Shown here piece by piece: positions 3,731 through 18,555 of a stretch of 31,254 nt of DNA (positions are counted from its first letter, which is position 1; every line of letters begins with the position of its first letter). The DNA is from a virus. The position numbers and the translations under genes were made by a program. The notes beneath the pieces were generated by a model that saw only the letters and a list, made by a program, of their open reading frames with translations, was not told the origin of the DNA and made no database searches. The stretch covers positions 1 to 31,254 of the IMG/VR virus record IMGVR_UViG_3300008108_000218; one strand, written 5' to 3'.

Positions 3731-5193
3731 TGTCGAGAATTGTAATCCGCAAAAAGAACGAAGTATTTCTTCAGATCTTGTCCGAACCTCATGTTCATCG
3801 TGAGTTGTCGGACTATTTTTCTTTTGAAGTACCAGAAGCAAAGTTTCTAAAAAGAAATCCAAAGTATCGTTACTGGGATGGAACTATCCATTTGTATTCT
3901 CCAGCCACAGGAGAACTATATGGTGGTCTTTTGCCTCACTTGAAAGAGTGGTGTGGAGAACGTCAGTATCAACTTCAGTATGAAAATAACGATTGGTATG
4001 GGGAGGTAGAAGAAACTAATGGATTTGTTTCTCCTGCTGGAATCAAAGTGTTTATGGATAAGATCTGTAAATATGCTCCAAGAGATTATCAATATGCGAC
4101 GGTATACAAAGCACTGAAGAATAATCGTGGATTATTTTTGTCTCCAACTGGATCAGGAAAATCCTTGATGATTTATAGTATAGTGCGTTATTACGTAGCC
4201 ACTAATAAGAAAATTTTATTGATCGTCCCAACAACATCGTTGGTTGAGCAGATGTTAAAGGACTTCAAAGATTATGGATGGAATGCCGACGAATTCTGTC
4301 ATACAATTTATTCGGGCAAAGATAAGAACACAGATAAGCCTGTCATCATTTCTACCTGGCAATCAATCTACAAATTTCCCAAAAGGTATTTTGACGATAT
4401 TGACTGTGTTATCGGTGATGAAGCACACTTATTTAAGTCAAAATCTCTCACAGGAATCATGACTAAACTTCATAATGCTAAGTATCGTTTCGGATTTACT
4501 GGAACATTAGATGGAAGTAAAACTCACAAGTGGGTTCTTGAAGGATTGTTTGGCTCATGTGAAAAAGTTACGAAAACAGATGATCTGATTAAGAAAGGTC
4601 ACTTGTCCAATTTTCGTATCAAGATTCTTGTCTGTAAGCATGAGTATCAATATTTTGAAGATTATCATTCCGAAATGGAATACATTGTGAACAATCGCAA
4701 GAGAAACAATCTTATTAAGAATCTCGTATGCGATATTGATGGCAACACATTAGTTTTGTTTAACTATGTGGAGAAGCATGGTATGCCATTGTTTGATTTA
4801 ATAAATACTGCTATAGGGGGAGACCGTAAAGTTTTCTTTGTTCATGGTTCAACTGACGTTGAGGATAGAGAAGAAGTCAGATCTATTACTGAACAAGAAA
4901 ATAATGCTGTAATTATTGCATCTTACGGAACCTTTAGTACTGGTATTAATATTAAGAAACTGCACAATATTATCTTTGCTTCACCATCTAAATCTAGAGT
5001 AAGAAATCTACAATCTATTGGTAGGGTATTACGTAAAGGAGAAGATAAAGATATTGCTACTCTTTATGATATCGCTGATGATATCTCTTCAAAGTCAAGA
5101 CAAAACTATACTTTAAACCATTTGGTAGAAAGAATTAAAATTTATGATGAAGAGAACTTTAAGTATGAAACAATAAAAATAGATTTAAGATAA
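3730..5193 (+). CDS. uvsW: UvsW ATP-dependent DNA helicase
   Basis: UvsW is a superfamily 2 helicase that unwinds branched DNA and R-loops, shutting off origin-dependent replication in favour of recombination. The 487 aa (T4: 503) show the expected motifs. Walker A is SPTGSGKS at residues 138-145, motif II is DEAH at 230-233, and TGTLD is motif III. The second RecA-like domain carries STGINIKKLH and a motif VI-like SIGRVLRKGEDK. The first about 100 residues match the small UvsW N-terminal domain. It lies in the late unit behind uvsY, matching the late expression known for T4 UvsW. Confidence 0.96.
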   Translation: MSRIVIRKKNEVFLQILSEPHVHRELSDYFSFEVPEAKFLKRNPKYRYWDGTIHLYSPATGELYGGLLPHLKEWCGERQYQLQYENNDWYGEVEETNGFVSPAGIKVFMDKICKYAPRDYQYATVYKALKNNRGLFLSPTGSGKSLMIYSIVRYYVATNKKILLIVPTTSLVEQMLKDFKDYGWNADEFCHTIYSGKDKNTDKPVIISTWQSIYKFPKRYFDDIDCVIGDEAHLFKSKSLTGIMTKLHNAKYRFGFTGTLDGSKTHKWVLEGLFGSCEKVTKTDDLIKKGHLSNFRIKILVCKHEYQYFEDYHSEMEYIVNNRKRNNLIKNLVCDIDGNTLVLFNYVEKHGMPLFDLINTAIGGDRKVFFVHGSTDVEDREEVRSITEQENNAVIIASYGTFSTGINIKKLHNIIFASPSKSRVRNLQSIGRVLRKGEDKDIATLYDIADDISSKSRQNYTLNHLVERIKIYDEENFKYETIKIDLR

Positions 5194-5195: not shown

Positions 5196-5591
5196 ATGGA
5201 AGAAGAATTTTATTCAACTATTAAACTTACTTCTGGTGAAGAAATCATTGCTAAGGTATGTTATCTTCCTGATGAAGATTCTTTATTAATAGAGAATCCA
5301 ATGACAGTAGAAGCTGTTAAAGGTAAATCTTCTCAGGAAGCATTCATACTAAAAGATTGGATTAAATCAAGTTATGATTCAATGTATATTATTAAAATGA
5401 ATCAAGTCATTACTATGAGTGAGTTAGATAAAAAGATAGAAGTATTTTATTTAAAGAATTTATCTGGAGAAGGATTCATAGATCCAGATACTGTTAATAT
5501 TAAACCTAATCAGTTTAGTCAAAGGATGGGTTACTTAGGATCTGTAAAGGAAACTAAGAAGTTTCTAGAAGATATATTTAATAAAAGCTAA
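5196..5591 (+). CDS. Sm-like small protein, paralogue A
   Basis: This encodes an unassigned 131-aa protein. The N-terminal half has the pattern of an Sm-like beta barrel: TIKLTSGEEIIAKV (residues 8-21), a variable loop, then IENPMTVEAV. It ends in a helical, basic tail. The same layout (G-E-x-I-I-A-x-V, a strand with P-hydrophobic, then W or P, an I-K-M/P-x-x-x-V strand and a helix) recurs in the proteins at 17566, 17909 and 18301, so these look like one paralogous family. It starts 2 bases after the uvsW stop and should be transcribed with it. Function is unknown; RNA binding would fit the fold but is only inferred. Confidence 0.75.
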   Translation: MEEEFYSTIKLTSGEEIIAKVCYLPDEDSLLIENPMTVEAVKGKSSQEAFILKDWIKSSYDSMYIIKMNQVITMSELDKKIEVFYLKNLSGEGFIDPDTVNIKPNQFSQRMGYLGSVKETKKFLEDIFNKS

Positions 5592-5630
5592 TGAGTATCT
5601 ATAAGTAATTAATAGATATTATTAATCTTG

Positions 5631-5660
5631 AACCCTGACAGAGTTATTCTACTGGGTTTT
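5631..5660 (+). terminator. possible weak terminator before the gp55 unit
   Basis: AACCC and GGGTT arms enclose a small inner AGA/TCT pairing and are followed by TTATG. The stem is interrupted and the T-run is short, so termination would be partial at best. It sits between the late uvsW unit and the gp55 promoter. Confidence 0.35.
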
Positions 5661-5679
5661 ATGAGGTTTGTCAACCCCC

Positions 5680-5708
5680 TTGACATTCCGATTGCCTCGT
5701 GTTATGAT
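5680..5708 (+). promoter_or_regulatory. sigma70-type promoter of gp55
   Basis: TTGACA (5680-5685) and TATGAT (5703-5708) are separated by exactly 17 bp. TGT just before the -10 box makes it also an extended -10. It lies in a 152-bp gap, 36 bases before the gp55 ATG. The host housekeeping sigma factor should recognise it early in infection, so that gp55 is made before late transcription. Confidence 0.85.
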
Positions 5709-5743
5709 AGATTCAACACAATTATTTTTATTAGTGATGAACT

Positions 5744-6238
5744 ATGGCAAAAACAAAAAGCAAGGAGTTCTATGTAAACAATAAGGAATTCCTACAAGCA
5801 TTGATTGAATACAGAACAAAGGTCAAGCAAGCAAAGGAATCTGGATCTCCTCGCCCCATAGTTCCCAACTATATTGGTGACTGCTTTCTCAAGATTGCTA
5901 CTCACCTATCATACAAACCAAACTTTGTCAACTACATGTTCCGTGAGGATATGATTTGTGATGGCATTGAGAATTGTTTACAATACATTGATAACTTTGA
6001 TCCAGAGAAATCACAAAACCCATTTGCATACTTCACTCAAATTATTTGGTATGCTTTCTTGAGGAGAATTCAAAAAGAAAAGAAACAACTTGAAATCAAG
6101 AACAAAATACTTGAGAGATCAGGTTACGATCAAGTTATGCACACAGATGATTATGGTGCCGATATGGCTGGCATGAACCATAATTATTCTGATATGGGTA
6201 GTATCAAAGAAAACATTGAAACACGAATGAATCGATGA
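5744..6238 (+). CDS. 55: late-transcription sigma factor gp55
   Basis: gp55 is the highly diverged sigma factor that directs host core RNA polymerase to phage late promoters such as TATAAATA. The 164 aa (T4: 185) contain a sigma-2-like segment around residues 65-115. It reads FVNYMFREDMICDGIENCLQYIDNFDP, then NPFAYFTQIIWYAFLRRI, matching sigma region 2 (core binding and -10 recognition). The C-terminal 45 residues are polar and less conserved. No clear Shine-Dalgarno sequence precedes the ATG (leader AGTGATGAACT). The stop overlaps the gp47 start (ATGA), so the two are probably coupled. Confidence 0.93.
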   Translation: MAKTKSKEFYVNNKEFLQALIEYRTKVKQAKESGSPRPIVPNYIGDCFLKIATHLSYKPNFVNYMFREDMICDGIENCLQYIDNFDPEKSQNPFAYFTQIIWYAFLRRIQKEKKQLEIKNKILERSGYDQVMHTDDYGADMAGMNHNYSDMGSIKENIETRMNR

Positions 6239-7278
6239 CAGTAGCACTTATCACTGATCAACATCTTGATGGTAGAAAAGGAAGCATTGCTTTCTGGGAA
6301 TACTTTAATAAGTTTTATGATGAAGTATTTTTTCCAACACTTAAGGAACGAGGGATAACAACAGTTATAGACCTCGGAGATACTTTTGATAATCGTAAGA
6401 ACATTGATTATAATGTTTGGGCTCGTATTCGCAGGAATTACTTTGATCGTCTTGCTGACAACAATATTTCAGTTCATATGATCTTGGGTAACCATTGTGT
6501 TTACTACAAGAACACGAATGAAATCAACGCACCAGATCTTCTTCTCGATACTTACGATAATATTCAGATCTATTCTCAGCCAGAAACAGTAATGATTGAA
6601 GGCACTAAAATTCTAATGTTGCCTTGGATCAATGCTCAAAACTATGAAGAGACAATGAGATGGATCAAGGATACCAGTGCCGAGATTGCTATGGGACATC
6701 TTGAACTGAATGGATTTGAAGTAACTCCTGGTATGCTTCATGAAGGTGGTATGGATCCAGACATCTTCTTCAAATTCAAGCAAGTATTTTCTGGACACTT
6801 CCACCACAAGTCAAGTCGTGGTAACATTACTTACCTTGGCAATCCTTATCAGATGTTCTGGAATGATTACAAGGATCCACGAGGATTTCATCTCTACGAA
6901 CCAAAGTCAAATAAACTACAGTTCATCAAAAATCCATTTGAAATCTTCAAGAAAATCTATTACGATGATTCACAACCACAAGAAATTAATCCAGAAGAAT
7001 ATGCTAATACTTATGTAAAAGTTGTTGTCGAACAAAAAACTGATTTCTTTAAGTTTGAAAAACTAATCGAATCTTTATACAACGCAAACGTCCTTGATCT
7101 TAAGATCATTGAAACAATGGTTGAAAAAGATAAGAAAGATGTGGACATTAATCTTGAAATTACCGATACGCTTTCTCTACTAAATGAATACATTGATGAG
7201 GTAGAGATGTCCGTAAATAAAAACGAACTTAAGTCAATTATGAGATCCCTATATATTGAAAGTTGTGAAGTAGTATGA
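6235..7278 (+). CDS. 47: recombination endonuclease subunit gp47 (Mre11-like)
   Basis: gp47 is the Mre11/SbcD-type nuclease which, with gp46, resects DNA ends for recombination-dependent replication. The 347 aa (T4: 339) carry the calcineurin-like phosphoesterase motifs: DQH at 8-10, DLGDTFDNR around 46-54, GNH at 85-87, a lone MGH, and GHFHHKS. All metal ligands appear intact. The C-terminal 100 residues form the capping and gp46-binding part. It overlaps gp55 upstream by 4 bp and the DUF3110-like gene downstream by 4 bp. Confidence 0.96.
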   Translation: MTVALITDQHLDGRKGSIAFWEYFNKFYDEVFFPTLKERGITTVIDLGDTFDNRKNIDYNVWARIRRNYFDRLADNNISVHMILGNHCVYYKNTNEINAPDLLLDTYDNIQIYSQPETVMIEGTKILMLPWINAQNYEETMRWIKDTSAEIAMGHLELNGFEVTPGMLHEGGMDPDIFFKFKQVFSGHFHHKSSRGNITYLGNPYQMFWNDYKDPRGFHLYEPKSNKLQFIKNPFEIFKKIYYDDSQPQEINPEEYANTYVKVVVEQKTDFFKFEKLIESLYNANVLDLKIIETMVEKDKKDVDINLEITDTLSLLNEYIDEVEMSVNKNELKSIMRSLYIESCEVV

Positions 7279-7541
7279 TGTTTATTCTCACACTCAAAGA
7301 TAAACCAGACGGCGTATTTTCAGTAATAAGCGACGAAGGTGAACAAATTATCCCTATTTTTGAGTGTGAGGATGATGCTGATAGATATCATTTTCAACTT
7401 ACAATGCTAGATGATTATCCAGAGATGCAAATATATGAAATCGAAGAAGATTTAATTGTTAATGCTTGCGAAGAGCGAGACCAAAAATATGCTATCATTA
7501 CGATAGATGATTTCCTGATTCCACCAAAAGATTTACGATGA
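7275..7541 (+). CDS. DUF3110-like small protein between gp47 and gp46
   Basis: The 88-aa acidic protein resembles the cyanobacterial DUF3110 family: an N-terminal strand, then IIPIFECEDDADRYHFQLTM (residues 29-48) and YPEMQIYEIEEDLI. In that family the F-E-D/C-x-D-D-A-x-R-Y pattern recurs in short proteins of unknown function. It is translationally linked to both nuclease subunits (ATGATG overlap upstream, ATGA downstream), which suggests a role with gp46/gp47. That is inferred from position only. Two adjacent ATG codons (7275 and 7278) could each serve as start. Confidence 0.75.
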   Translation: MMFILTLKDKPDGVFSVISDEGEQIIPIFECEDDADRYHFQLTMLDDYPEMQIYEIEEDLIVNACEERDQKYAIITIDDFLIPPKDLR

Positions 7542-9277
7542 TTACATTTAAAAAAATTCGCTGGAAGAATTTTCTTTCTACTGGAAATGTCTTTACTGAA
7601 ATTGATTTAACTAAAAACAAAACCAATCTGATTGTTGGTAAAAATGGAGCAGGCAAGTCAACCATCTTAGATGCGTTGACTTTTTCTCTCTTCGGTAAAC
7701 CGTATAGAAAAATTAATAAACCGATGCTAGTCAATAGCATCAACAGTGCCGATTGCCTCACCGAAACTGAATTTGATATCGGAAACAATCAATATAAAAT
7801 TGTTCGTGGTATCAAACCAGCTGTATTTGAGATATGGCAAAACGGTGCTTTGCTTGATCAAAATTCTTCTATCATTGATCAGCAAAAACAACTGGAACAA
7901 AACATCCTCAAAATGAATTACAAATCTTTTACTCAGATTGTAGTTCTTGGATCTTCAAACTTCATTCCTTTCATGCGACTACCTGTTGCATCACGTCGAG
8001 AAATCATTGAGGATATCCTTGACATCCAGATCTTTTCTGTGATGAATTTAAATTTAAAAGAGAAACTTAAATTTGCTAACGATGATATCAAAGAACGTGA
8101 CTATCAACTTGACATGCTTTCGGAAAAAATTGAAATGCAGAAAGCGTTCATCAGTGATATTGAAAAGAAAACTGAATCTGAAATAGATAGTAGAAAAGAT
8201 AAGATCGATGAGTTTAGGATTGAACAACAGTCCCATGATTCATCTATCATTGACTTTTCTAATAAAGTATCGGAACTTATAGATCGATCTAAAAGTCATG
8301 AAGGTGCTGATGCTAAGCTTAAAAAGCTTACTACTTTAAAAGGGAAGATTCAGCAGAAGTTTAGTAGCTATCAAAAAGAACATCAGTTCTTCAGTGAGAA
8401 TGAAAGCTGTCCTACATGTGGTCAGCATATCGATGATGATCTTAAACAGAATCGACTTGATAAGATCATGGGTTCTATTACTGATCTCAATAAAGGTTTT
8501 GATGAGATCAAACAAACAATTGAAGAAGAAGAAAATCGCCACAAAGAGTTTATCAATCTACAATCCGAAATCAATGATTACAATTCTAAGATTCATTTCG
8601 CTCGCACTACAAATGATCGAATCGAAAGACAGATCAAACAACTCCAACAAGAAATCGAAAACCTTAAGAACCAGACAGGATCGGAAGGTGAAGCGTATGC
8701 AAAGCTTGACGAGTATGAACAGGAGCAGGCAAATCTAAAGAAACAATTAAGTATTGTTAAGGAAGAACGTGAATGTTTGCAAACTGCTGCTATACTGTTG
8801 AAAGATAATGGTATCAAAACCAGAATCATTAAACGGTATCTTCCTGTTATGAATAAACTCGTTAACGAGTATCTTCAAAACATGGATTTCTATGTTAACT
8901 TTACTCTCGATGAAAATTTTGAGGAAACAATCAAATCAAGATATAGAGACATCTTCTCTTACGAATCATTCTCGGAGGGAGAAAAAGCTCGTATTGATAT
9001 TTCTCTTCTGCTTACTTGGAGAGCTGTTGCTAAACTTAAAAATAGCGTTGACACTAACCTCCTTATCCTCGATGAGATCTTTGATGGATCTCTAGATACT
9101 AGTGGTAGTAGTGAGCTTGGTTGGATTCTTAGAAACTTCGACAAGAATACCAACGTGTTTGTTATTAGTCACAAAGAAGGAATGGAAGATAAGTTTCATT
9201 CTACTTGGCATTGCGAAAAAGTTAAAAACTTCAGTTACGTCAAGGAGACGACTTTTGAAGTGGCACAGGAGGGGTGA
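7538..9277 (+). CDS. 46: recombination endonuclease subunit gp46 (Rad50-like)
   Basis: gp46 is the SMC/Rad50-type ATPase partner of gp47. In the 579 aa (T4: 560), Walker A is GKNGAGKST at residues 34-42. A long coiled coil runs from about 180 to 420 and is broken by the zinc-hook CPTC at 291-294. The ABC signature SEGEK is at 479-483, and Walker B ends in LDE at residues 511-513. All catalytic elements are intact. The stop codon lies inside the arm of the terminator that follows, an economical overlap. Confidence 0.97.
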   Translation: MITFKKIRWKNFLSTGNVFTEIDLTKNKTNLIVGKNGAGKSTILDALTFSLFGKPYRKINKPMLVNSINSADCLTETEFDIGNNQYKIVRGIKPAVFEIWQNGALLDQNSSIIDQQKQLEQNILKMNYKSFTQIVVLGSSNFIPFMRLPVASRREIIEDILDIQIFSVMNLNLKEKLKFANDDIKERDYQLDMLSEKIEMQKAFISDIEKKTESEIDSRKDKIDEFRIEQQSHDSSIIDFSNKVSELIDRSKSHEGADAKLKKLTTLKGKIQQKFSSYQKEHQFFSENESCPTCGQHIDDDLKQNRLDKIMGSITDLNKGFDEIKQTIEEEENRHKEFINLQSEINDYNSKIHFARTTNDRIERQIKQLQQEIENLKNQTGSEGEAYAKLDEYEQEQANLKKQLSIVKEERECLQTAAILLKDNGIKTRIIKRYLPVMNKLVNEYLQNMDFYVNFTLDENFEETIKSRYRDIFSYESFSEGEKARIDISLLLTWRAVAKLKNSVDTNLLILDEIFDGSLDTSGSSELGWILRNFDKNTNVFVISHKEGMEDKFHSTWHCEKVKNFSYVKETTFEVAQEG

Positions 9278-9291
9278 CACCCTCCTTTTTT
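9267..9291 (+). terminator. terminator overlapping the gp46 stop
   Basis: AGGAGGG and CCCTCCT form a 7-bp perfect stem around a 6-base loop, followed by TTTTT. The hairpin contains the gp46 stop codon, and its loop carries a candidate -35 box for the next gene. Confidence 0.88.
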
Positions 9292-9303
9292 ATGGTCTAT
9301 ACT
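9274..9303 (+). promoter_or_regulatory. candidate promoter of the VWA gene, nested in the gp46 terminator
   Basis: GTGACA (9274-9279, 5 of 6 to TTGACA) and TATACT (9298-9303) are spaced by 18 bp. The -35 box lies in the loop of the terminator hairpin. The predicted start of transcription would leave a leader of only about 16 bases before the ATG at 9326. Confidence 0.55.
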
Positions 9304-9325
9304 GACTTCAGTTCAGACAAAACCA

Positions 9326-11488
9326 ATGCCCATCAACCACGAAGTCAAAGGCAACCTCGCCAAGCTGCTTGCCACCGAAAACCTTGTGATTGAGCACAAG
9401 AAGGTAGCTACTGCATCTTTTGATGTAATTAACCGTGTTCTGGTACTTCCTATCTGGGATCGTGCTTCAGGCACCGTATACGACCTTCTGGTTGGGCATG
9501 AGGTGGGTCATGCACTCTATACCCCAGCAGATGATTGGCGTGAGTGTTTGACTCAACCCATCCCTCCAGATTATGTCAATGTGATCGAAGATGCTCGCAT
9601 TGAGAAACTGATGAAGCGTAAGTATCCTGGTCTTGCTCGCAGTTTTTACAACGGATATCAAGAACTTAATAAGTCAGATTTCTTCTCTATTGCGGATGAA
9701 GATATGTCTGCGATGTCTCTTATTGATCGTATCAACCTTCACTTCAAGGTGGGTGCGTTTGCACTGATTCCTTTTTCTGAGGATGAGAAGCAGTTTGTTG
9801 AGATGACAGAAGTGGCAGAAACCTTTGCTGATGTCTTGATGATCTGTGAGCAGATTGTATCTTTCCTCAAAGACAAATATAAGGAAGAGCAGATCGAGGT
9901 TTCTGTTGACCGTGAAGAAATTATGCAGGGTCATGGTGGACAATCTATGTCTGTGGATATGGATGGTGATGAATCTTCAGAAGAACCTCAGCAAAAGAAA
10001 GAAGAAGGAGATAGTCAGATTGAAGCGGATGAAGATATTGCTACTGGTAAAAAAGCTGGTGGTCCTTCCGATGAAGAGGTATCTAAAACTCAGCGATCTT
10101 TTGATTCTGAGCTGGAATCTCTTACCGATAAAAATTCTCACGGTCATGAAACTGACTACGTAGAACTGCCTAAATTTGATATCAATAAAATCGTTGCAGA
10201 TAATACTTTGCTTCGTAATTATATCAATGAACAGTTTAATCATCAGCAAGCACAAATTGATAAGCATGTTGATTTGTTTGCAGGAACTGATACTTCATAT
10301 CGTAACTACAAAAAAGAATCTACTAAGGAAGTAAACTATCTTGTAAAGGAGTTTGAGTGTAGGAAATCTGCTGATGCTTATGCTCGTGCTTCCACTGCTC
10401 GCACTGGAGTTCTTGATACCAAGATGCTTCATACCTACAAGTATAATGAAGATCTGTTCAAGAAAGTTTCTATCATCCCTGATGGTAAGAATCATGGTCT
10501 GATCTTTATTCTTGACTGGTCTGGATCTATGAATGATTATCTTCTGGATACTGTCAAGCAACTGTTGAACCTTGTATGGTTCTGTCGTAAAGTTCAGATT
10601 CCTTTTGAGGTGTATGCATTTACTTACGAGTGGAATGATCGCTATGCCGATCCTGATGCAGAATGGGATCGTGAAATCTGTGAAAAGAAAGATGGTCACA
10701 TCATCATCCACAATCGTTTCTCTTTGATGAATATGTTGACATCAAAAACGAATAGCAAAGATTTTGAAAATGATTGTATCAATCTCTGGCGTCTTGCTGT
10801 TCGTCAAGATCGTAAGAGCTACTGCCGTTACAGCTGTCCAGCTGGTTTGGATTTGAGTGGCACTCCTCTCAATGAAAGCATCATTGCACTACATCAAATT
10901 ATTCCCATGTTCAAAAACAGGGAGCAACTTCAGAAAGTTAACGTTGTTATCCTTACCGATGGCGACGGTAACGGTCTTCAATATAGTGTTGATGTTCGTC
11001 GTAAGTATGGTCGTGATGTAGATTATCTTGGTCGTAATACTGTCAATGATTTGACTGCTCTTCGTGATCGTAAAACTGGTCACGTTTATCGCAACTTTGA
11101 TAATGGTCATCGCAATGGTTTGACTACTATTTTACTGGAAAATCTCAAGCACAATTTCCCCTTTGTAAATCTGATTGGATTCCGAATTCTTTCTGGTTCT
11201 GAATTCAGTTATCTGTTCAGGGGAGTGAATGAAATCTTTAGGAATGGTGATGATGCGAAAGTTGCCGCTGCATTTAAAGTGTGGCGAAAGGAGCACTCGT
11301 ATGAATTCAATGACATTGGATATGATGCTCTGTATACCCTTGCCTCATCTAAGCTGAACCAGGACACTACGTTTACTGTCACAGAAGATGCCAGCGATGC
11401 TCAGATCGCCAAGGCATTCCGTGATACAATGAAGACCAAGCGAACCAGCAAGAAAATCCTTTCTTCGTTCGCTACCCTGGTCAGCTGA
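9326..11488 (+). CDS. HEXXH metalloprotease-like protein with VWA domain (CobT-like)
   Basis: This 720-aa protein combines two modules. The N-terminal part has HEVGH at residues 58-62 and NVIEDARIE at 85-93, the layout of a zinc metallopeptidase (two His plus a downstream Glu). An acidic, low-complexity linker covers about 200-290. The C-terminal half is a von Willebrand A domain with the full metal-binding MIDAS set: DWSGS at 397-401, a Thr near 513 in SGTPLNES, and TDGDG near 544. Related cyanophage genes are sometimes labelled CobT-like. Together with the AAA+ gene downstream it looks like a MoxR-VWA type pair, probably remodelling or cleaving a protein. No Shine-Dalgarno precedes the ATG. 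The target is unknown. Confidence 0.8.
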   Translation: MPINHEVKGNLAKLLATENLVIEHKKVATASFDVINRVLVLPIWDRASGTVYDLLVGHEVGHALYTPADDWRECLTQPIPPDYVNVIEDARIEKLMKRKYPGLARSFYNGYQELNKSDFFSIADEDMSAMSLIDRINLHFKVGAFALIPFSEDEKQFVEMTEVAETFADVLMICEQIVSFLKDKYKEEQIEVSVDREEIMQGHGGQSMSVDMDGDESSEEPQQKKEEGDSQIEADEDIATGKKAGGPSDEEVSKTQRSFDSELESLTDKNSHGHETDYVELPKFDINKIVADNTLLRNYINEQFNHQQAQIDKHVDLFAGTDTSYRNYKKESTKEVNYLVKEFECRKSADAYARASTARTGVLDTKMLHTYKYNEDLFKKVSIIPDGKNHGLIFILDWSGSMNDYLLDTVKQLLNLVWFCRKVQIPFEVYAFTYEWNDRYADPDAEWDREICEKKDGHIIIHNRFSLMNMLTSKTNSKDFENDCINLWRLAVRQDRKSYCRYSCPAGLDLSGTPLNESIIALHQIIPMFKNREQLQKVNVVILTDGDGNGLQYSVDVRRKYGRDVDYLGRNTVNDLTALRDRKTGHVYRNFDNGHRNGLTTILLENLKHNFPFVNLIGFRILSGSEFSYLFRGVNEIFRNGDDAKVAAAFKVWRKEHSYEFNDIGYDALYTLASSKLNQDTTFTVTEDASDAQIAKAFRDTMKTKRTSKKILSSFATLVS

Positions 11489-11506
11489 GCAGCTGTCCAC
11501 CCTGAT

Positions 11507-11535
11507 TTGACAGGGGAGAGATTCTCCCCTATACT
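11507..11535 (+). promoter_or_regulatory. sigma70-type promoter with palindromic spacer, CobS-like gene
   Basis: TTGACA (11507-11512) and TATACT (11530-11535) are separated by 17 bp. That spacer is a perfect 17-bp inverted repeat: GGGGAGA at 11513-11519, GAT in the centre, TCTCCCC at 11523-11529. It could be an operator for a dimeric repressor or activator, or a hairpin that ends the upstream transcript, although no T-run follows. The expected start of transcription is near 11542. Confidence 0.82.
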
Positions 11536-11566
11536 AAGAACATCCCAATCAACGGAGCCTTTTGTT

Positions 11567-12670
11567 ATGCCTCGCATGTCCCAGATCAACATGAACGAAC
11601 TGACCGCTTTTATTTCTGAAAACTATGGTAACGATTTCGGCACTAATGCCGTGTATGCTGCAGCAAAACATTTTGATGTTTCTCACCCGACTATTGCTAA
11701 GCGTCTCGATCAATACAAAGTTGGTCATGGTCGTTGGTCGCTGACTGCTGACCAACTTGAGAAAACTTACAATGCACCTGCTGCAGAACCTGCAGTTGAA
11801 ACTGTGGAAAAAGTAAACCTGATTCCTGAAAAAGATGATAACTTCGTCAGCTTTGGTAACTTTAGTGACGTTAAGAAAATTATTTCTTCTAACGTCTTCT
11901 ATCCTGTGTTCATCACTGGCATGTCTGGTAATGGTAAAACTTTCAGTGTGGAGCAAGCTTGTGCTCAACTAAAGCGTGAGATGATTCGTGTAAACATCAC
12001 TATTGAAACTGATGAGGATGATCTGATCGGTGGTTTCCGTCTTGTTGATGGAAACACTGTGTGGCACAACGGTCCTGTGATTGAAGCTCTTGAGCGTGGT
12101 GCTGTTCTGCTGCTTGATGAGATCGACCTTGCTTCTAACAAGATCATGTGTCTTCAGTCCATCCTCGAAGGTAAGGGCGTGTTCCTGAAAAAAACGGGTC
12201 GTTATGTGAAGCCTACCCATGGTTTCACTATCATTGCTACTGCAAACACCAAGGGCAAGGGTTCTGATGATGGTCGTTTCATTGGCACCAATGTTTTGAA
12301 CGAAGCATTCCTTGAGCGATTTGCTCTCACCTTCGAGCAGGATTATCCGACTCCTAAGATCGAGCAAAAGATTCTTGAAAAGCTTTCTGCAAAGCTTGGT
12401 GTTCTAGATGAAGAGTTCTGTCAGAAGCTTGCTTTCTGGGCAGAGCAAATTCGCAAAACCTTCAAGGATGGTGGTGTTGATGAAGTGATTTCCACTCGTC
12501 GTCTGACTCACATCATTCGTGCTTATAGCATCTTCAACAAGCGTAAGAAAGCAATCGAAGTTTGTGTGAATCGTTTTGATGATGAGACCAAGGAATCGTT
12601 TCTTTCTCTCTACAATGCAATTGATGAAAAGGTAGAAACTGTAAATGAAAACCAAGAAGGAATCATCTGA
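11567..12670 (+). CDS. cobS: CobS/MoxR-like AAA+ ATPase
   Basis: The 367-aa product matches the cyanophage gene usually annotated cobS. Walker A is GMSGNGKT at residues 118-125, Walker B ends in LLLDEID (D184, E185), sensor 1 lies in IIATANTKG, and a GRFIGTN...ERFALTF segment carries the Arg finger region. The first about 75 residues look helix-turn-helix-like (NAVYAAAKHFDVSHPTIAKRL), unlike a plain AAA+ protein. The ATG at 11567 is chosen because GGAG lies 9 bases upstream; an in-frame TTG at 11507 would place the start inside the -35 box. True cobaltochelatase also needs CobN, which is absent here, so a chaperone-like role with the upstream VWA protein is at least as likely. Confidence 0.85.
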   Translation: MPRMSQINMNELTAFISENYGNDFGTNAVYAAAKHFDVSHPTIAKRLDQYKVGHGRWSLTADQLEKTYNAPAAEPAVETVEKVNLIPEKDDNFVSFGNFSDVKKIISSNVFYPVFITGMSGNGKTFSVEQACAQLKREMIRVNITIETDEDDLIGGFRLVDGNTVWHNGPVIEALERGAVLLLDEIDLASNKIMCLQSILEGKGVFLKKTGRYVKPTHGFTIIATANTKGKGSDDGRFIGTNVLNEAFLERFALTFEQDYPTPKIEQKILEKLSAKLGVLDEEFCQKLAFWAEQIRKTFKDGGVDEVISTRRLTHIIRAYSIFNKRKKAIEVCVNRFDDETKESFLSLYNAIDEKVETVNENQEGII

Positions 12671-12824
12671 GTTTCACGGGTATGTTGGTAACCTCGCCGT
12701 TCTAACGAGCGGCGAGACCGTGAAAATCCTTGGTGGACATCACCTTAAACTGTTCGTAAAAACACTTGACGGCACAATCAAAGAGTGCTATCATAGTGAT
12801 CTGTCTTATGTATTGGAGGAATGA
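12645..12824 (+). CDS. small SH3/Sm-like hypothetical protein
   Basis: A 59-codon ORF starts inside the end of the CobS-like gene in another frame and ends at the TGA at 12822-12824. The product has the look of a small beta barrel: YVGNLAVLTSGETVKIL, then LKLFVKTLDGTIKECYHSDL. The T-S-G-E-x-V phrase resembles the start of the Sm-like proteins elsewhere in the window, but the protein is much shorter. It has no strong Shine-Dalgarno and would depend on coupling with the upstream gene. It contains the promoter of the next gene. Function unknown. Confidence 0.6.
   Translation: MKTKKESSEFHGYVGNLAVLTSGETVKILGGHHLKLFVKTLDGTIKECYHSDLSYVLEE
12766..12794 (+). promoter_or_regulatory. sigma70-type promoter of the DUF3310-like/gp45 unit
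   Basis: TTGACG (12766-12771) and TATCAT (12789-12794) are spaced by 17 bp, with TGC in front of the -10 box (extended -10). It lies within the 59-aa ORF and probably drives the DUF3310-like gene and the clamp and clamp-loader genes behind it. Confidence 0.72.
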
Positions 12825-12826
12825 TT

Positions 12827-13135
12827 ATGCAATGGAAATACAATGAGGACAAAATCCTCAAGGACATTGAAGAGTATGTGATCAGCACCTATCATGGTCA
12901 CTACTGCGGTGACGAAGAAGGTTTTGATGACATTCAAACAATTGATCTGATGGCAGCAAAGAAACTTGCCTCTGGGTTTTGTCAAGCAAACATCCTCAAG
13001 TATGGCAGCCGATATGGCGACAAGGATGGGCTTAACAAGCGAGACCTTCTCAAAGTCATTCATTACGCCATGCTGCTGCTTCACTTTGATAAACACTATT
13101 CTCGCACTCAAAACGGTCTCCAGGAGTTTAAATGA
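12827..13135 (+). CDS. DUF3310-like protein
   Basis: This encodes a 102-aa product of unknown function. The segment QANILKYGSRYGDKDGLNKRDLLKVIHYAMLLL (about residues 54-86) fits the DUF3310 pattern: a helix with N-x-x-K-Y, then R-Y/A, then a helix D-L-x-K-x-x-x-Y. This family is common in phages, and its members are sometimes called nucleotide-kinase associated without strong proof. The ATG at 12827 is chosen because GGAGG at 12815-12819 gives a 7-base spacing; an ATG at 12821 would sit on top of the Shine-Dalgarno. It overlaps gp45 by 4 bp. Confidence 0.75.
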   Translation: MQWKYNEDKILKDIEEYVISTYHGHYCGDEEGFDDIQTIDLMAAKKLASGFCQANILKYGSRYGDKDGLNKRDLLKVIHYAMLLLHFDKHYSRTQNGLQEFK

Positions 13136-13797
13136 GTAACGTAACTATTTCTCCCCAAACAATGATGGTGCTGAAAAACTTCTCCACCATTAATGGTTCT
13201 ATTCTGATTCGGGAAGGCAACCAGCTAAAAACAATCAGTGTAGGTGAGAACGCTGTTGCACAATATACTTGTGCAGAAACATTTCCCCAAACTTTTGGTA
13301 TCTATGATCTAAACCAGTTCCTTGCTGGTCTGTCTCTTTTTGATAATGCAGTTCTAGATTTTAACAATCCAGAATATGTAACTATTCGTGGTGGTGGTCG
13401 TAGTGCCAAGTATTATTTCTCTAGTCCTGAGATTACCCTGAAAGCAGCACCAGAAAAAGATATTAAATTTCCTGGTGCTGATATGGAATTTACTATTAGT
13501 CAGGAAGATATTACTGCACTTCATAAAGCAAGCGCCGTGTATAGCATTGCTGATCTCAAGTTTCATTCTATTGGAGGGTCTGTAGTCCTCAGCTTGGTGG
13601 ATAAAGAGAATGAAACTAGCAATGTATTCTCACTTGAGTTGCCTGGTGATAACACTGGCGAGTATGAATTTTTCATGAAGATGGAAAATATTCGATTGCT
13701 TCCTGGAAATTATCATGTTAAAATTTCCAAGCATCTGATTACAGAGTGGAAACACACTTCTCTCGATCTCACTTATTATATTGCTCTTGAACCTTGA
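13132..13797 (+). CDS. 45: sliding clamp gp45
   Basis: gp45 is the trimeric DNA polymerase clamp and, in T4, also the mobile enhancer of late transcription through gp55 and gp33. The 221-aa length agrees with T4 gp45 (228). Family features include an N-terminal helix with TMMVLKNFSTINGSILIREG, the mid-chain NQFLAGLSLFDNAVLDF, and a C-terminal beta-rich domain ending in TSLDLTYYIALEP. CAGGAG gives a good ribosome site before the ATG. The stop overlaps the gp44 start by one base (TGATG), giving coupling with the clamp loader. Confidence 0.95.
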   Translation: MSNVTISPQTMMVLKNFSTINGSILIREGNQLKTISVGENAVAQYTCAETFPQTFGIYDLNQFLAGLSLFDNAVLDFNNPEYVTIRGGGRSAKYYFSSPEITLKAAPEKDIKFPGADMEFTISQEDITALHKASAVYSIADLKFHSIGGSVVLSLVDKENETSNVFSLELPGDNTGEYEFFMKMENIRLLPGNYHVKISKHLITEWKHTSLDLTYYIALEP

Positions 13798-14741
13798 TGA
13801 ATAAGAAATTTTTGTGGGTGGAAGAATATCGTCCTCATACTATTGATGACTGTATTCTTCCAGTGAATATTAAAAAATCATTTGAAGGATTCCTTGCTCA
13901 GAAAGAAATCCCTAATCTTCTCCTTTGTGGTTCTGCTGGTGTGGGAAAGACCACAGTTGCCAAAGCGGTGTGTGATGAGATTGGAGCATCCTACATTGTC
14001 ATTAACGGTTCGGACGAGGGACGATTCCTGGATACTGTTCGGAACAAGGTCAGGCAATTCGCCACAACTGTCTCATTGACCTCTGGGGCAGCCCACAAGG
14101 TCGTCATTATTGACGAGGCAGACAACACCACCAGCGACGTTCAGCTGTCGCTCAGGACCGCTGTGGAAGAGTTCCACAGCAACTGTCGCTTTATCTTTAC
14201 CTGTAACTTCCCAAACAAAATCATTGAACCATTGCACTCACGTTGTACGGTTATTGATTTTAAAATTAATAGCACAGAAGTAGATAAACTTCAAGCTAAA
14301 TTTTTTGTACGTCTCAAAACTATTCTTGATAACAATAGTATTGAGTACGAAGATAAAATTTTGATTAAACTAATCAAGCGTTATTATCCAGATTGGAGGA
14401 GGCTGATCAATGAAGCACAGAGACACAGTGCCAACGGACGGATTGATTCTTCTATTCTTGCTGACATTGCCGACATTAATCTGGATGATTTGGTCCGCTC
14501 GCTAAAGAATAAAGAATTTACTACAGTAAAGAAATGGGTTGTTGAAAATATCGATAACGATCCTAATCTTGTTTTGCGAAGAATGTATGAGGTTCTTTAT
14601 GATAATCTTAAACCAGCTTCTATTCCTGAAGCAGTTTTAATTATCGCAAAATATCAGTATCAAATTTCTTTTGTTGCTGATCAGGAGATTAATCTTCTTG
14701 CTTGCCTTACTGAAATTATGATGAGTTGTGAATTCAAATGA
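13797..14741 (+). CDS. 44: clamp loader large subunit gp44
   Basis: gp44 is the AAA+ ATPase subunit that opens and loads the gp45 clamp together with gp62. In the 314 aa (T4: 319), Walker A is GSAGVGKTT (K51), Walker B is the box IIDEAD (residues 104-109), and the SRC motif is at 148-150. The ATG at 13797 is preferred over an in-frame TTG three bases earlier, as it gives the usual MNKKFLWVEEYRP start. It overlaps the homing endonuclease downstream by ATGA, so that gene is inserted without breaking the clamp loader. Confidence 0.96.
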   Translation: MNKKFLWVEEYRPHTIDDCILPVNIKKSFEGFLAQKEIPNLLLCGSAGVGKTTVAKAVCDEIGASYIVINGSDEGRFLDTVRNKVRQFATTVSLTSGAAHKVVIIDEADNTTSDVQLSLRTAVEEFHSNCRFIFTCNFPNKIIEPLHSRCTVIDFKINSTEVDKLQAKFFVRLKTILDNNSIEYEDKILIKLIKRYYPDWRRLINEAQRHSANGRIDSSILADIADINLDDLVRSLKNKEFTTVKKWVVENIDNDPNLVLRRMYEVLYDNLKPASIPEAVLIIAKYQYQISFVADQEINLLACLTEIMMSCEFK

Positions 14742-15415
14742 AAAACGTTGATGAGATCATTCAAAATTTAAGAGATAAAGACATTTGGAATGAAGAAATT
14801 CTTTCCTATATCGAAACTTTAATTAAGAAAGAAATCTGGACAAACATTGTTATAGCAGGTAAAGAATATGACGGATATTCTATTTCTAGTCATGGAAATT
14901 TGATCTCGCATTTTAAACAAATTAGATCTAACGGGCTTATTGTTACTAAAATAGTTGATCCAACGATTAAAAAACCTTGTAAATTTTCTCCTTCTAAAGA
15001 TAAAAATGGTAGAATAACATCAATGTACAAAAAAATTCATTTGCCAAAAGGATTTTTTGAAGGTACATATCTAGAAAATGAAAATTATTTTTCTCAAGCT
15101 AGCACTAGTTTTGCTTATAGAAGAACTCCCCATCAATTAGTTATGGAAGCATTCCTCCCAATTTTCAAATATCCTCCAAAAAGGTTAGAGTTTTTTTGGA
15201 ATGATTTAGCGATTGGAGTAAAACAATGGATATATGAATCTGTAATTATAGATCATATTGATAATGATCCAACTCATAATTGTATATGGAATTTAAGATA
15301 TGGTACTGCTGGTGAAAATACCAGATGGGCAAAGGAACATTATGGGGGGAATTTTACAAACAAAATCAATAGTGCTCCTAAAGTGAAAAAAAATTCTATT
15401 CTCTCATTTATTTGA
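14738..15415 (+). CDS. HNH homing endonuclease
   Basis: This 225-aa protein is a probable free-standing homing endonuclease. A NUMOD4-like motif lies at 34-54 (EIWTNIVIAGKEYDGYSISS, then HGN). The HNH motif is DHIDNDPTHNCIWNL starting at residue 172 (D172, H173, then N181 and N185), followed by GTAGEN. Such genes cut cognate sites in related phages and spread with flanking DNA. It sits between gp44 and the genes leading to gp62, which in T4 are adjacent. Codon use (many AGA, ATA and AAA) differs from gp44 and gp45, which fits recent arrival. The ATG overlaps the gp44 stop, so it uses the host operon for translation. Confidence 0.9.
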   Translation: MKNVDEIIQNLRDKDIWNEEILSYIETLIKKEIWTNIVIAGKEYDGYSISSHGNLISHFKQIRSNGLIVTKIVDPTIKKPCKFSPSKDKNGRITSMYKKIHLPKGFFEGTYLENENYFSQASTSFAYRRTPHQLVMEAFLPIFKYPPKRLEFFWNDLAIGVKQWIYESVIIDHIDNDPTHNCIWNLRYGTAGENTRWAKEHYGGNFTNKINSAPKVKKNSILSFI

Positions 15416-15416
15416 T

Positions 15417-15809
15417 ATGATTAATTTTCAATCCGAAAGTAAAAAATCTGGTGATGAGTTTGAAGATTTTGTTGAACAAGATCTTATTAAACGTAATGGA
15501 ATAATTGTTGGTAAAGATTATTGTGTTCGGAATATTGGCATTGAACTTGATTACATTGCAGATCTTCCATATCGAACAGAGTATGTGGAAGCAAAAGGTG
15601 GGAGATCTGGTGGCAAGAAACGACCAGGAGCACAACGAACAGACAATGTAAAGAAAGCTGTTTGCAATGGTGCGTTACTTAAGTTTTATAAACCAGATGC
15701 ATATTATGTAATCTATTTTTCTGCTAAACCAAAAGAAGATAGTTACTCTCATAATATGATTCTAACAGCTATTCAAGCTGGGTATGTTAATGAGGTTCGT
15801 TATCTATGA
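15417..15809 (+). CDS. PD-(D/E)XK nuclease-like protein
   Basis: The 130-aa product shows the core of the restriction-endonuclease fold: an N-terminal helix with GDEFEDFVEQDL (E20 nearby), then IGIELDYIAD with D45, and VEAKGG with E58 and K60. The D-(12)-E-A-K layout is the classic catalytic signature. A basic loop, GGKKRPGAQR, follows. Candidates are a Holliday-junction or branched-DNA nuclease, or a remnant of a mobile nuclease module next to the HNH gene. It lies between the two clamp-loader genes, so a replication or repair role is plausible but not shown. It begins 1 base after the HNH stop. Confidence 0.75.
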   Translation: MINFQSESKKSGDEFEDFVEQDLIKRNGIIVGKDYCVRNIGIELDYIADLPYRTEYVEAKGGRSGGKKRPGAQRTDNVKKAVCNGALLKFYKPDAYYVIYFSAKPKEDSYSHNMILTAIQAGYVNEVRYL

Positions 15810-15970
15810 ATAAGACAACACCTGAAAATGTAGCAGAAGCAAACTGGGCATTGTTTCGTGCTACAATGAATCTTCCTGCTGCAGCTGCTCATTGTGGCAT
15901 GACCCAAAAGGAAATGAAAATGACTTTCCGTGAATTTTTGAAGTACCACGAACCTGATTATGAAAGTTGA
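15806..15970 (+). CDS. small HTH-like protein
   Basis: A 54-aa ORF overlaps the nuclease gene by 4 bp (ATGA) and gp62 by 11 bp. The product, with residues 20-50 reading TMNLPAAAAHCGMTQKEMKM and then FREFLKYH, looks like a helix-turn-helix: a short Ala-rich helix, the turn CGMT, and a second helix starting QKEMK. The tight overlaps on both sides argue that it is really translated. It may regulate transcription or simply bind DNA; nothing else is visible. Confidence 0.7.
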   Translation: MNKTTPENVAEANWALFRATMNLPAAAAHCGMTQKEMKMTFREFLKYHEPDYES

Positions 15971-16343
15971 ACTTAAAGATTATCTTTATAGCATCAATCA
16001 ATCCAAGAAAAATATCATGGATGATCCTGATGCTGTAAAAAGTTACCCGCCTTTTATTATTAATAAATGTTTAGCTTATCATACTGATAGCATTCTTTAT
16101 GCTAACGAAATGAATCGTTATCCAGAATTGGATAAGAAGATGCAGTATGACTTTTATATAAATAGTTTGAAGCCAAGGAAACGATTTAGTCCCTGGGTAA
16201 AAAAACAAACACTTGAGCATCTTGAATTAGTAAAAGAGTATTATGGTTATAACCATGCAAAATCTCTAGAAGCATTGAGGATTCTCACGACAGAACAACT
16301 TGATCTAATTAAACAAGCATTGAATAAAGGCGGAACAAAATGA
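15960..16343 (+). CDS. 62: clamp loader small subunit gp62
   Basis: gp62 completes the gp44/gp62 clamp loader. The 127 aa are shorter than T4 gp62 (187), as in other marine relatives. The conserved part SYPPFIINKCLAYHTDSILY, followed by ANEMNRYPELDKKMQYDFY (about residues 28-67), with YINSLKPRKRFSPW, is clear. The stop overlaps the regA start by 4 bp (ATGA), as in the T4 gene 44-62-regA cluster. Confidence 0.93.
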   Translation: MKVELKDYLYSINQSKKNIMDDPDAVKSYPPFIINKCLAYHTDSILYANEMNRYPELDKKMQYDFYINSLKPRKRFSPWVKKQTLEHLELVKEYYGYNHAKSLEALRILTTEQLDLIKQALNKGGTK

Positions 16344-16762
16344 CAACTGACATTGAAATTAAATGGCAACAATCTGATATGGTAGAAGTTGCTCTGGGTC
16401 AACCTGATGATTTTCTCAAGGTTCGTGAGACCCTAACTCGCATTGGAGTTGCTTCTAGAAAAGAACATAAACTATACCAATCATGTCATATCTTACATAA
16501 ACAAGGTAAGTATTACATCGTGCATTTCAAAGAACTCTTTGCTCTCGATGGAAAAAAGACAAATCTTTCTCTCAATGACGTTCAGCGTCGCAATCGTATT
16601 ATCCAGTTACTTTCTGATTGGGGTCTTATTGAAGTAGTAACTCCAGATAAAATTGAGGATGTTGCTCCACTCAATCAAATTAAAGTTCTTTCATTTAAAG
16701 ATAAAGATGATTGGACTCTTGAAAGCAAGTATAATATTGGAAGAAAGAAAACTGAGGTATGA
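16340..16762 (+). CDS. regA: translational repressor RegA
   Basis: RegA binds the start regions of several early phage mRNAs and blocks translation, including clamp and clamp-loader mRNAs in T4. The 140 aa (T4: 122) show the family pattern: MVEVALGQPDDFLKVRETLT near the start, SCHILHKQGKYYIVHFKELF, and NDVQRRNRIIQLLSDWGLIE. It directly follows gp62, its classical place. A small extension at the C-terminus overlaps the next ORF by ATGA. Confidence 0.95.
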   Translation: MTTDIEIKWQQSDMVEVALGQPDDFLKVRETLTRIGVASRKEHKLYQSCHILHKQGKYYIVHFKELFALDGKKTNLSLNDVQRRNRIIQLLSDWGLIEVVTPDKIEDVAPLNQIKVLSFKDKDDWTLESKYNIGRKKTEV

Positions 16763-16884
16763 GAACATTAACCATGATGGTGTTAACTCCTAACAAAGAA
16801 GTTAAGTGGTTAACCATACCATGGGGAAAATCTCATCTTGATTGGTATAGAAAACAAGGATATACTATCCTGATGACCGTATAA
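16759..16884 (+). CDS. 41-aa hypothetical protein after RegA
   Basis: This short ORF begins in the ATGA overlap with the regA stop and ends just before a terminator. The product (MRTLTMMVLTPNKEVKWLTI, then PWGKSHLDWYRKQGY) is basic with two predicted strands and a short helix, and matches no family I recognise. The overlap and the terminator right behind it support it as the last gene of the gp45-regA unit. Confidence 0.55.
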   Translation: MRTLTMMVLTPNKEVKWLTIPWGKSHLDWYRKQGYTILMTV

Positions 16885-16888
16885 AATT

Positions 16889-16916
16889 GTGGGGTTTCCA
16901 ACACCCCACTTTTTTT
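16889..16916 (+). terminator. terminator of the clamp-regA unit
   Basis: GTGGGGT (16889-16895) and ACCCCAC (16903-16909) form a perfect 7-bp stem followed by seven T residues. It ends the replication unit that begins at the DUF3310-like gene. Confidence 0.92.
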
Positions 16917-16922
16917 ATGATG

Positions 16923-16931
16923 TGTTATAAT
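16923..16931 (+). promoter_or_regulatory. extended -10 promoter of hsp20
   Basis: TGT directly followed by TATAAT makes a full extended -10 element. No -35 box is visible, since that region is occupied by the terminator arm. The expected start of transcription near 16938 gives an 88-base leader before the hsp20 ATG. Confidence 0.65.
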
Positions 16932-16940
16932 TAGTATGTG

Positions 16941-17020
16941 ATGGGTACGTGGTCAATGACCGCCCATACGCTACGGATGCCGATTAAGGATCCTAATTTA
17001 AACCTCGCTTATTTAAGGAG
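16941..17020 (+). promoter_or_regulatory. structured hsp20 leader, possible RNA thermometer
   Basis: Two hairpins can be drawn in the leader. The first pairs ATGGG (16941-16945) with CCCAT (16963-16967), with an inner GGT/ACC stem. The second pairs CTC and CTT (17004-17006, 17008-17010) with AAGGAG (17015-17020), which is the Shine-Dalgarno itself, across an ATTT loop and one bulged G. A weak stem hiding the ribosome site of a small heat-shock gene is the hallmark of bacterial RNA thermometers. An upstream TCCTAA could pair with the same site instead. This is a hand-drawn prediction, not a computed fold. Confidence 0.5.
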
Positions 17021-17025
17021 ACACC

Positions 17026-17466
17026 ATGACTAAATACACCTGGGATATCTATTCCCCATTTTCAGTAGGTCTAGACGATGTGTTTAATCGTCTAGAGGCA
17101 ATGTCTGGACACAATACCAGTTATCCGCCCTACAATTTAATCAAACACGATGGCAGCAATTACGAAATTGAAATCGCTCTTGCAGGATTTAAAGCAGAGG
17201 AGATCGAAGTATCTACTGAACAGAACATTCTCCGAGTTGCCTCCAAAGTTGAAAAACGAGATCCTGAACGAGTGTACATTCATAAAGGATTGTCGAAGCG
17301 TTCCTTCAACCATTCCTGGCAACTTGCCGATGATGTCCGAGTATCCTCTGTAGATTTTGCTGATGGTCTTTTGACAATCTCTTTAGAAAAAATTGTACCA
17401 GACCATCAGAAGAAAACTACTTATACGATTGGAACAAGTGAGAAGCAACTTCTTATGGAAGCATAA
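17026..17466 (+). CDS. hsp20: small heat-shock protein Hsp20
   Basis: This is an alpha-crystallin type chaperone that keeps unfolding proteins soluble, common in T4-like cyanophages. The 146 aa contain a short N-terminal region (1-38), the alpha-crystallin domain (about 40-130) with the strand NYEIEIALAGFKAEEIEVST and the block LSKRSFNHSWQLADDVRVSS, then VDFADGLLTISLEK. A short tail follows. The usual C-terminal I-x-I anchor is not obvious. AAGGAG lies 5 bases before the ATG. It has its own promoter and terminator, so it is a single-gene unit. Confidence 0.95.
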   Translation: MTKYTWDIYSPFSVGLDDVFNRLEAMSGHNTSYPPYNLIKHDGSNYEIEIALAGFKAEEIEVSTEQNILRVASKVEKRDPERVYIHKGLSKRSFNHSWQLADDVRVSSVDFADGLLTISLEKIVPDHQKKTTYTIGTSEKQLLMEA

Positions 17467-17488
17467 ATAAATCGTATCGTCGGCGCAC

Positions 17489-17530
17489 GGGGCAAAGCTG
17501 GTCAGCATCAGCACTTGCCCCATTTTACTT
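17489..17530 (+). terminator. terminator of hsp20
   Basis: GGGGCAA (17489-17495) and TTGCCCC (17515-17521) form the outer stem. GCTG and CAGC form an inner stem around an 8-base loop. ATTTTACTT follows. The 3' arm doubles as the -35 box of the next promoter. Confidence 0.75.
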
Positions 17531-17543
17531 TGTGTGCTATAAT
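17515..17543 (+). promoter_or_regulatory. promoter of the Sm-like/gp43 cluster
   Basis: TTGCCC (17515-17520) and TATAAT (17538-17543) are spaced by 17 bp, with TGC before the -10 box. The -35 box is the descending arm of the hsp20 terminator. The predicted leader is only about 16 bases and has no Shine-Dalgarno. Confidence 0.7.
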
Positions 17544-17565
17544 AGCTTAGTATATAATTTGGACT

Positions 17566-17907
17566 ATGGAATCAATTAAAATAGTTCTTCTGAGAAATCA
17601 ACTGCAGGTAATTGCAAAAGTTAGTGAACTACAAACAGACGATAACACTCCGTACTGTTTTTTGTTTGAAGTTCCCTTTGTTGTTTCCTTTGATGAAGGA
17701 AGCACTCCAGAAGACCCAAAAATTGTATTTACGGCATTGATGCCTTTTACAAAGAATTTCGCATATAGAATGCCATTTGATCAAGTGATGACTATGGGAG
17801 ATCCTACAGATCCTATTTTAAATAGATATGTGGAAATTGTAAAACCATATTATCCAATCGATGGTGGAGCTGAACCAAACGTAATTGAAAATCAAGAGGA
17901 AAATTAA
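17566..17907 (+). CDS. Sm-like small protein, paralogue B
   Basis: This encodes a 113-aa product of unknown function. IKIVLLRNQLQVIAKVSEL (residues 4-22) and FLFEVPFVVSFDE (about 33-45) look like the first strands of an Sm-like barrel. LMPFTKNFAYRMPFDQVMTM and a helix LNRYVEIV complete the same layout as the proteins at 5196, 17909 and 18301. It is the first gene of the unit leading to DNA polymerase, starts about 16 bases from the predicted transcription start, and has no clear Shine-Dalgarno. The C-terminal tail is acidic. Confidence 0.75.
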   Translation: MESIKIVLLRNQLQVIAKVSELQTDDNTPYCFLFEVPFVVSFDEGSTPEDPKIVFTALMPFTKNFAYRMPFDQVMTMGDPTDPILNRYVEIVKPYYPIDGGAEPNVIENQEEN

Positions 17908-17908
17908 A

Positions 17909-18304
17909 ATGACAACTGAATCTCAAAAACTTAATCCGTCTATTGTTGTTCTTAAAACTGGTGAAAAATTAATCACAATTCTTCAAGAAGCATTTGAAGG
18001 GGAAGGAGAAGAGCAAAAAGGAATTTGTCTTGTAATGAGTCATCCTTATGAATTGTATTTGGTCAATGTTAATAATACAGAAAATCCAGAACAAGATCTT
18101 CAGGTAAAGTTTAGTAAGTGGTGTCCGTATTCTATTGACATCCAATATAAAATTCCTTATGATGGTGTTCTTGCTATTGGACAACCAGATCCAGGACTTG
18201 CTCAAGCATACCAAGCTAAAATTGAGCAGTATGAACAAATGACTGAAAACCAAAGACAACAACAAGAAGATATTGCGAAAGTAATTAATCCTGAAGTAGT
18301 ATGA
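17909..18304 (+). CDS. Sm-like small protein, paralogue C
   Basis: The 131-aa product has the clearest Sm-like start of the family: SIVVLKTGEKLITILQEA, then ICLVMSHPYELYLV, then WCPYSIDIQYKIPYDGVLAI and a helix LAQAYQAKIEQYEQM. A Gln-rich tail follows. The ATG at 17909 is chosen because AGAGGA ends 8 bases upstream; an in-frame ATG at 17885 would add a basic MKIKRKIK extension inside the previous gene. It overlaps the next gene by 4 bp (ATGA). The function is unknown; it may form rings with its neighbours, which is inference only. Confidence 0.78.
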   Translation: MTTESQKLNPSIVVLKTGEKLITILQEAFEGEGEEQKGICLVMSHPYELYLVNVNNTENPEQDLQVKFSKWCPYSIDIQYKIPYDGVLAIGQPDPGLAQAYQAKIEQYEQMTENQRQQQEDIAKVINPEVV

Positions 18305-18555
18305 TCAAACTTATAAAATTTGATGGTGATTGGATTGTTGCAAATGTTTCAGAAATTCCTGAAGTAGAGTTTGGGGATCCTGATTGTGTGTTAAAATATC
18401 CGTATCAAGTTCAGGGGGAGTGCCTTGGACCTTGGCCTCTTCATTCCGATGAACGAGAGATCGTTGTTAGATCATCTGATGTAACAGTAGTCACAGAACC
18501 AAACACTTTCCTTTTGACATCCTACCAAAAAGTTATTGACGAAGAAACAGCATGA
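18301..18555 (+). CDS. Sm-like small protein, paralogue D
   Basis: This is an 84-aa shortened member of the same family: KLIKFDGDWIVANVSEIPEV (residues 3-22), VLKYPYQVQGE, then REIVVRSSDVTVV and a helix LLTSYQKVI. It lacks the C-terminal tail of its siblings. The order B-C-D with stop-start overlaps suggests tandem duplication. The stop overlaps the gp43 start by ATGA, coupling it to the DNA polymerase. Confidence 0.72.
   Translation: MIKLIKFDGDWIVANVSEIPEVEFGDPDCVLKYPYQVQGECLGPWPLHSDEREIVVRSSDVTVVTEPNTFLLTSYQKVIDEETA

Follow-up and report, generated by a model that had tools for sequence, protein, structure and literature searches.

Four small proteins of a T4-like cyanophage, here called A, B, C and D, are paralogues that belong to one phage Sm-like family, that of the solved protein 3BY7 (Pfam DUF6561 together with Sm_like). 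They are encoded in the window, a virus record 31,254 bases long that represents a fragment of a Kyanoviridae-type phage. An earlier note, made by eye from the sequence, had proposed such a family of four with an Sm/LSm fold, and all four ORFs were confirmed at the positions it gave. The genes concerned and the signals next to them are listed here.

3730 to 5193, plus strand: UvsW helicase (phrog_16, E 2.6e-123), immediately 5′ of A
5196 to 5591, plus strand: Sm-like protein A, 131 aa, between uvsW and gp55 (phrog_471)
17489 to 17521, plus strand: RNA hairpin, probably a terminator, 3′ of hsp20
17515 to 17543, plus strand: putative extended -10 promoter of sigma70 type (TTGCCC-17-TATAAT, TG before the -10), 5′ of B
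17566 to 17907, plus strand: Sm-like protein B, 113 aa, first gene of the predicted gp43 operon
17909 to 18304, plus strand: Sm-like protein C, 131 aa, with a Q-rich tail (T4-GC 176 type)
18301 to 18555, plus strand: Sm-like protein D, 84 aa (T4-GC 177 type)
18552 to 21047, plus strand: gp43 DNA polymerase (phrog_262, E 0), overlapping D

The start of C is the ATG at 17909; a mechanical ORF list puts it at a TTG at 17885.

Kinship of the four proteins

Relatives of A and C were gathered from viral contigs and those of B and D were taken from the same loci, giving family alignments of 41 (A), 19 (B), 45 (C) and 29 (D) sequences. Within the record, the phrog_431 profile matched all four proteins: C, itself a phrog_431 member, with E about 1.8e-34 to 1.4e-32, B with 7.5e-21, A with 1.0e-7 and D with 5.6e-4. 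No match to this profile was detected in T4 or in 14 control genomes. Profile-profile comparison joined B to C (E 1e-20), B to D (7e-7), A to B (6e-6) and C to D (3e-4). The same pairs scored 2e-21, 1.3e-7, 1.4e-6 and 8.6e-6, respectively, in a rerun that added the hsp20, regA, gp55, gp62 and uvsY families of these loci as controls, in which every control pair remained at E 0.019 or worse. The A-C comparison was marginal (0.0016-0.0025) and a direct A-D link was not seen in profile-profile comparison (E 0.11); these two pairs are connected via B, 3BY7 and structure. The paralogy first suggested by eye was thus borne out by profiles.

The motif layout from which it had been read held in part. 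A P-x-x-[V/L] element and a V-x-[T/A/V] strand are present in all four proteins, but the first element is exact only in A, being broken by a Q in B and an L in C and one residue shorter in D. The motif was loose and the relatedness drawn from it was right.

In a tree built on an 85-column core, B and C were sisters (bootstrap 91), and the B, C, D and A proteins of the window type formed separate groups. The deeper nodes, which would order A, D and the pelagiphage copies, received supports of 11-45, and we claim no root or ancestor. Purifying selection acts on each of the four genes (dN/dS 0.02-0.25). A non-exhaustive scan of bacterial and archaeal genomes found no relatives of D, and a host origin is therefore without support.

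Sm fold and the solved relative 3BY7

Pfam searches assigned A to Sm_like (PF16243; 9.6e-9, 35.7 bits against a cut-off of 29.4), and B and D to DUF6561 (PF20198; 1.1e-7 and 32.2 bits for B, 3e-21 and 75.7 bits for D, cut-off 27). C reached 13.7 bits with DUF6561, below the cut-off of 27, and is joined to that family via B at a profile E of 1e-20. The sequence of 3BY7 itself exceeds the DUF6561 cut-off, so this family of ‘unknown function’ has a solved Sm-like member.

The Pfam result also bears on the name of A, a protein with relatives in 459 phage records. Phage annotations commonly label it ‘methylamine utilization’, as does phrog_471. Only Sm_like exceeded its cut-off in A, and no metabolic domain was found in Pfam. 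Since A matches Pfam Sm_like and has a predicted Sm fold, the name is probably wrong and looks like a copied error. A function in methylamine utilization is spoken for by the annotation and by nothing else; against it also stands the position of A, always between uvsW and gp55 where this could be examined, and we give it practically no credence.

The crystal of 3BY7 (id JCVI_PEP_1096686650277), released in 2008 under a PDB title that includes the words ‘structurally similar to Sm/LSm-like RNA-binding proteins’, contains five chains of one sequence. In the designed cage TIP60 (7EQ9) this protein serves as the pentameric LSm component (PMC10374429). Profile searches of the PDB, which the earlier note had suggested, returned 3BY7 or TIP60 as the best solved match of each protein: 3BY7 at 7.7e-7 for B and 1.3e-4 for D, TIP60 at 2.5e-4 and 3BY7 at 4.7e-3 for C, and weakly TIP60 at 0.021 and 3BY7 at 0.031 for A. 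Single-sequence searches of the PDB gave nothing useful for A and B, and for C only TIP60/3BY7 at E 0.2-0.6.

Structure prediction for A and D, each as a single protein, agreed with the profiles. The AlphaFold model of D had a pLDDT of 91.7; that of A (74.6) was confident in its core and poor in its tail. In Foldseek searches 3BY7 ranked first for A (E about 6e-5, TM up to 0.88 over the target) and stood in the top group beside TIP60 for D (E about 6e-5). Next came spliceosomal Sm, LSm1-7 and archaeal SmAP chains (E 0.002-0.09, probability 0.93-1.00, TM about 0.5). Among predicted viral structures, numerous matches to the D model were cyanophage proteins, and weaker ones came from phages of Sinorhizobium, Rhizobium, Agrobacterium, Stenotrophomonas, Acidovorax and Ralstonia. 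The models thus support a five-stranded Sm barrel in A and D, and homology and profiles support the same predicted barrel in B and C. Each protein would consist of this barrel followed by a C-terminal helix, with an additional tail in A, B and C.

Only a single paralogue is represented by 3BY7, unlike the four of the window, and its nearest phage relative found is a gene of pelagiphage Mosig (L161:4001-4315, 44% identity) rather than of a cyanophage. This Mosig gene is found two genes 5′ of gp43, matching the location of B, C and D. Because it is the closest phage relative found, the source of the 3BY7 structure may be a pelagiphage. A 2009 paper on 3BY7 reportedly proposed a cyanophage origin and a pentamer.

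Gene neighbourhood and expression signals

Among the genes tested, the order in the window is uvsW, A, gp55, gp45, gp44, gp62, regA, hsp20, B, C, D, gp43, mazG, and Synechococcus phage Sf-FR1 has the same order. The interval between gp44 and gp62 also holds an HNH endonuclease-like ORF (14738-15415), possibly a homing endonuclease, and, between this and gp62, a 130-aa ORF without PHROG match (15417-15809). An Rfam scan of the window identified two tRNA genes (24017-24101 and 24273-24345) and no further known RNA family.

As the earlier note had observed, one of the genes follows uvsW and the other three lie in tandem, coupled to the DNA polymerase gene. A begins 2 nt after the uvsW stop. B and C are separated by 1 nt, and C/D and D/gp43 overlap by 4 nt each (ATGA). 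The uvsW-A-gp55 arrangement was found in all 83 testable loci (two further loci end at a contig edge), and the D/gp43 overlap of 4 nt recurred in 70 of 73; the loci behind these neighbourhood counts are related, and the numbers do not represent independent events. The uvsW-A-gp55 arrangement is also present in P-SSM2 and in pelagiphage HTVC008M, and in Mosig one small ORF is inserted between A and gp55.

The overlap with gp43 would fit tandem genes that serve mainly as leader reading frames setting gp43 translation, their products having little function of their own. The selection on the genes (dN/dS 0.02-0.25) and the conserved folds count against this, as does A, which occupies no such position, and we regard it as very unlikely.

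Profiles detected between one and four copies of the family in each of eight Kyanoviridae genomes. Four were found in the complete genomes of Sf-FR1, ACG-2014j and ACG-2014b, three in those of S-PM2, S-SSM7 and P-SSM2, two in Mosig and one in HTVC008M; a profile search for T4 homologues found none. The fourth copy varies, being B in the window and Sf-FR1 and a second C-type gene in ACG-2014j. In Synechococcus phage ACG-2014b it is an Sm-like gene of phrog_527 type directly 3′ of gp44 (L162:6001-6294), a position that no such gene occupies in the window. Of 80 C-carrying loci, which are likewise related to one another, 39 also have B; S-PM2, S-SSM7 and P-SSM2 are without it, unlike the window and Sf-FR1.

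The last observation bears on whether B, C and D together, or C with D, assemble into a single mixed ring in the manner of eukaryotic LSm subunits. They are tandem, overlapping and probably co-transcribed paralogues, two of them sisters, as such a ring would suggest. On the other side, roughly half of the loci with C have no B, so a ring requiring all three is not universal; the five chains of 3BY7 share one sequence, and A is encoded away from the others. On balance we find a mixed ring doubtful.

When 40 distinct regions 5′ of the first Sm-like gene were compared, 37 contained a site with a 17-nt spacer; in the exceptions (L005, L014 and L038) the ends were probably clipped during extraction. 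The gene behind this conserved extended -10 promoter is B or C, following hsp20. Consensus promoter sites are no commoner across the region than in shuffles, and the promoter call therefore rests on conservation. The conserved site places the Sm-like genes at the head of the predicted gp43 transcript. The site usually overlaps a hairpin. RNA folding of 17478-17566 gave -29.6 kcal/mol (z -2.7), and both in the window and in many relatives the -35 of the Sm-gp43 promoter falls within the 3′ arm. A is probably co-expressed with uvsW, from which 2 nt separate it, and a separate promoter-like site lies 5′ of gp55. A would thus be made alongside the UvsW helicase, and the three tandem proteins would be produced before gp43 and coordinately with it.

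Possible roles of the Sm-like proteins

Ring formation by A-D is made plausible by the five chains of 3BY7 and by its place as the pentameric LSm of TIP60; the ring state is taken from this one relative, whose identity to the window proteins is about 25% or less. By analogy with this solved pentamer, A-D would most likely assemble as small rings. They would bind RNA or ssDNA, with a role in replication or RNA handling. We put the chances that the four are small rings of the 3BY7 type serving nucleic-acid transactions at the fork or on phage transcripts at about even.

The barrel fold of the A and D models is shared with Hfq and with eukaryotic and archaeal Sm/LSm/SmAP rings. In contrast to these, the window proteins carry their helix at the C terminus rather than the N terminus, show little sequence similarity and have a strongly acidic character (pI 4.2-4.8; family medians of 4.2-4.3 for C and D). 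No Hfq family was among the Pfam matches up to E 1, and the low pI of all four argues against their acting simply like Hfq. Acidic RNA-binding Sm subunits do exist.

The RNA-contact residues gave a mixed picture. Arg57 of D is invariant in the window-type group and lies between the last two strands, in V-V-R-S-S-[DNE]-I, at what we take to be the place of the Sm2 Arg in RNA-binding Sm proteins. In the wider D group this residue varies (C in S-SSM7, T in ACG-2014b); in A the place is occupied by K, P or R, and B, C and 3BY7 lack a Sm2-like Arg. The Sm1-like G-x-x-[IV] start fits partially.

Alternatively, the acidic rings may dock not on RNA but on proteins, such as the polymerase, the clamp loader, UvsW, or host RNA polymerase or RNase. 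Such docking would suit the acidity of all four and the strict linkage to gp43 and uvsW, and it has precedents in Sm-like proteins that act via protein contacts: Rof docks on and inhibits Rho (PMC11018626), and cyanobacterial Hfq acts with the pilus ATPase PilB and does not bind RNA (PMC10989914). The invariant Arg57 of D at the Sm2 position and the existence of acidic subunits that do bind RNA weigh against it. With the fold and Arg57 set against the acidity, the lack of the Arg elsewhere and these precedents, we consider RNA or ssDNA handling by A-D an evenly balanced proposition, and protein docking appreciably less probable, though a serious contender.

Already known are the fold, one solved structure (3BY7, 2008), the Pfam families and the link to cyanophages. 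T4-like cyanophages (Kyanoviridae) routinely carry these genes: T4-GC 139 (A), 176 (C) and 177 (D) are the same genes in the same places in S-PM2 and P-SSM2, 176 and 177 also occur in S-SSM7, and all three are annotated without tested function. Pfam DUF6561 and Sm_like and PHROGs 431, 471, 483 and 527 cover these proteins, but as separate and mostly unnamed families. New here are the recognition of A, B, C and D as members of a single superfamily, of which one phage can carry up to four, the sister relation of B and C, the predicted leading place of Sm-like genes in the gp43 operon, and the finding that the name ‘methylamine utilization’ is unsupported for A.

Several unnamed core genes of abundant T4-like cyanophages are thereby united as one Sm-like superfamily. 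It is the hosts that lend this its interest: the Hfq of cyanobacteria does not bind RNA (PMC10989914), and the hfq gene is missing in 10 of the 12 Prochlorococcus strains examined (PMC2518516). That cyanophages carry an Sm-like system of up to four subunits, possibly in mixed rings, which handles RNA at the fork or on transcripts in hosts whose Hfq is missing or does not bind RNA, strikes us as improbable as a whole. Because such hosts are without a working Hfq, whether the phage supplies RNA-binding rings of its own is a clean, testable question.
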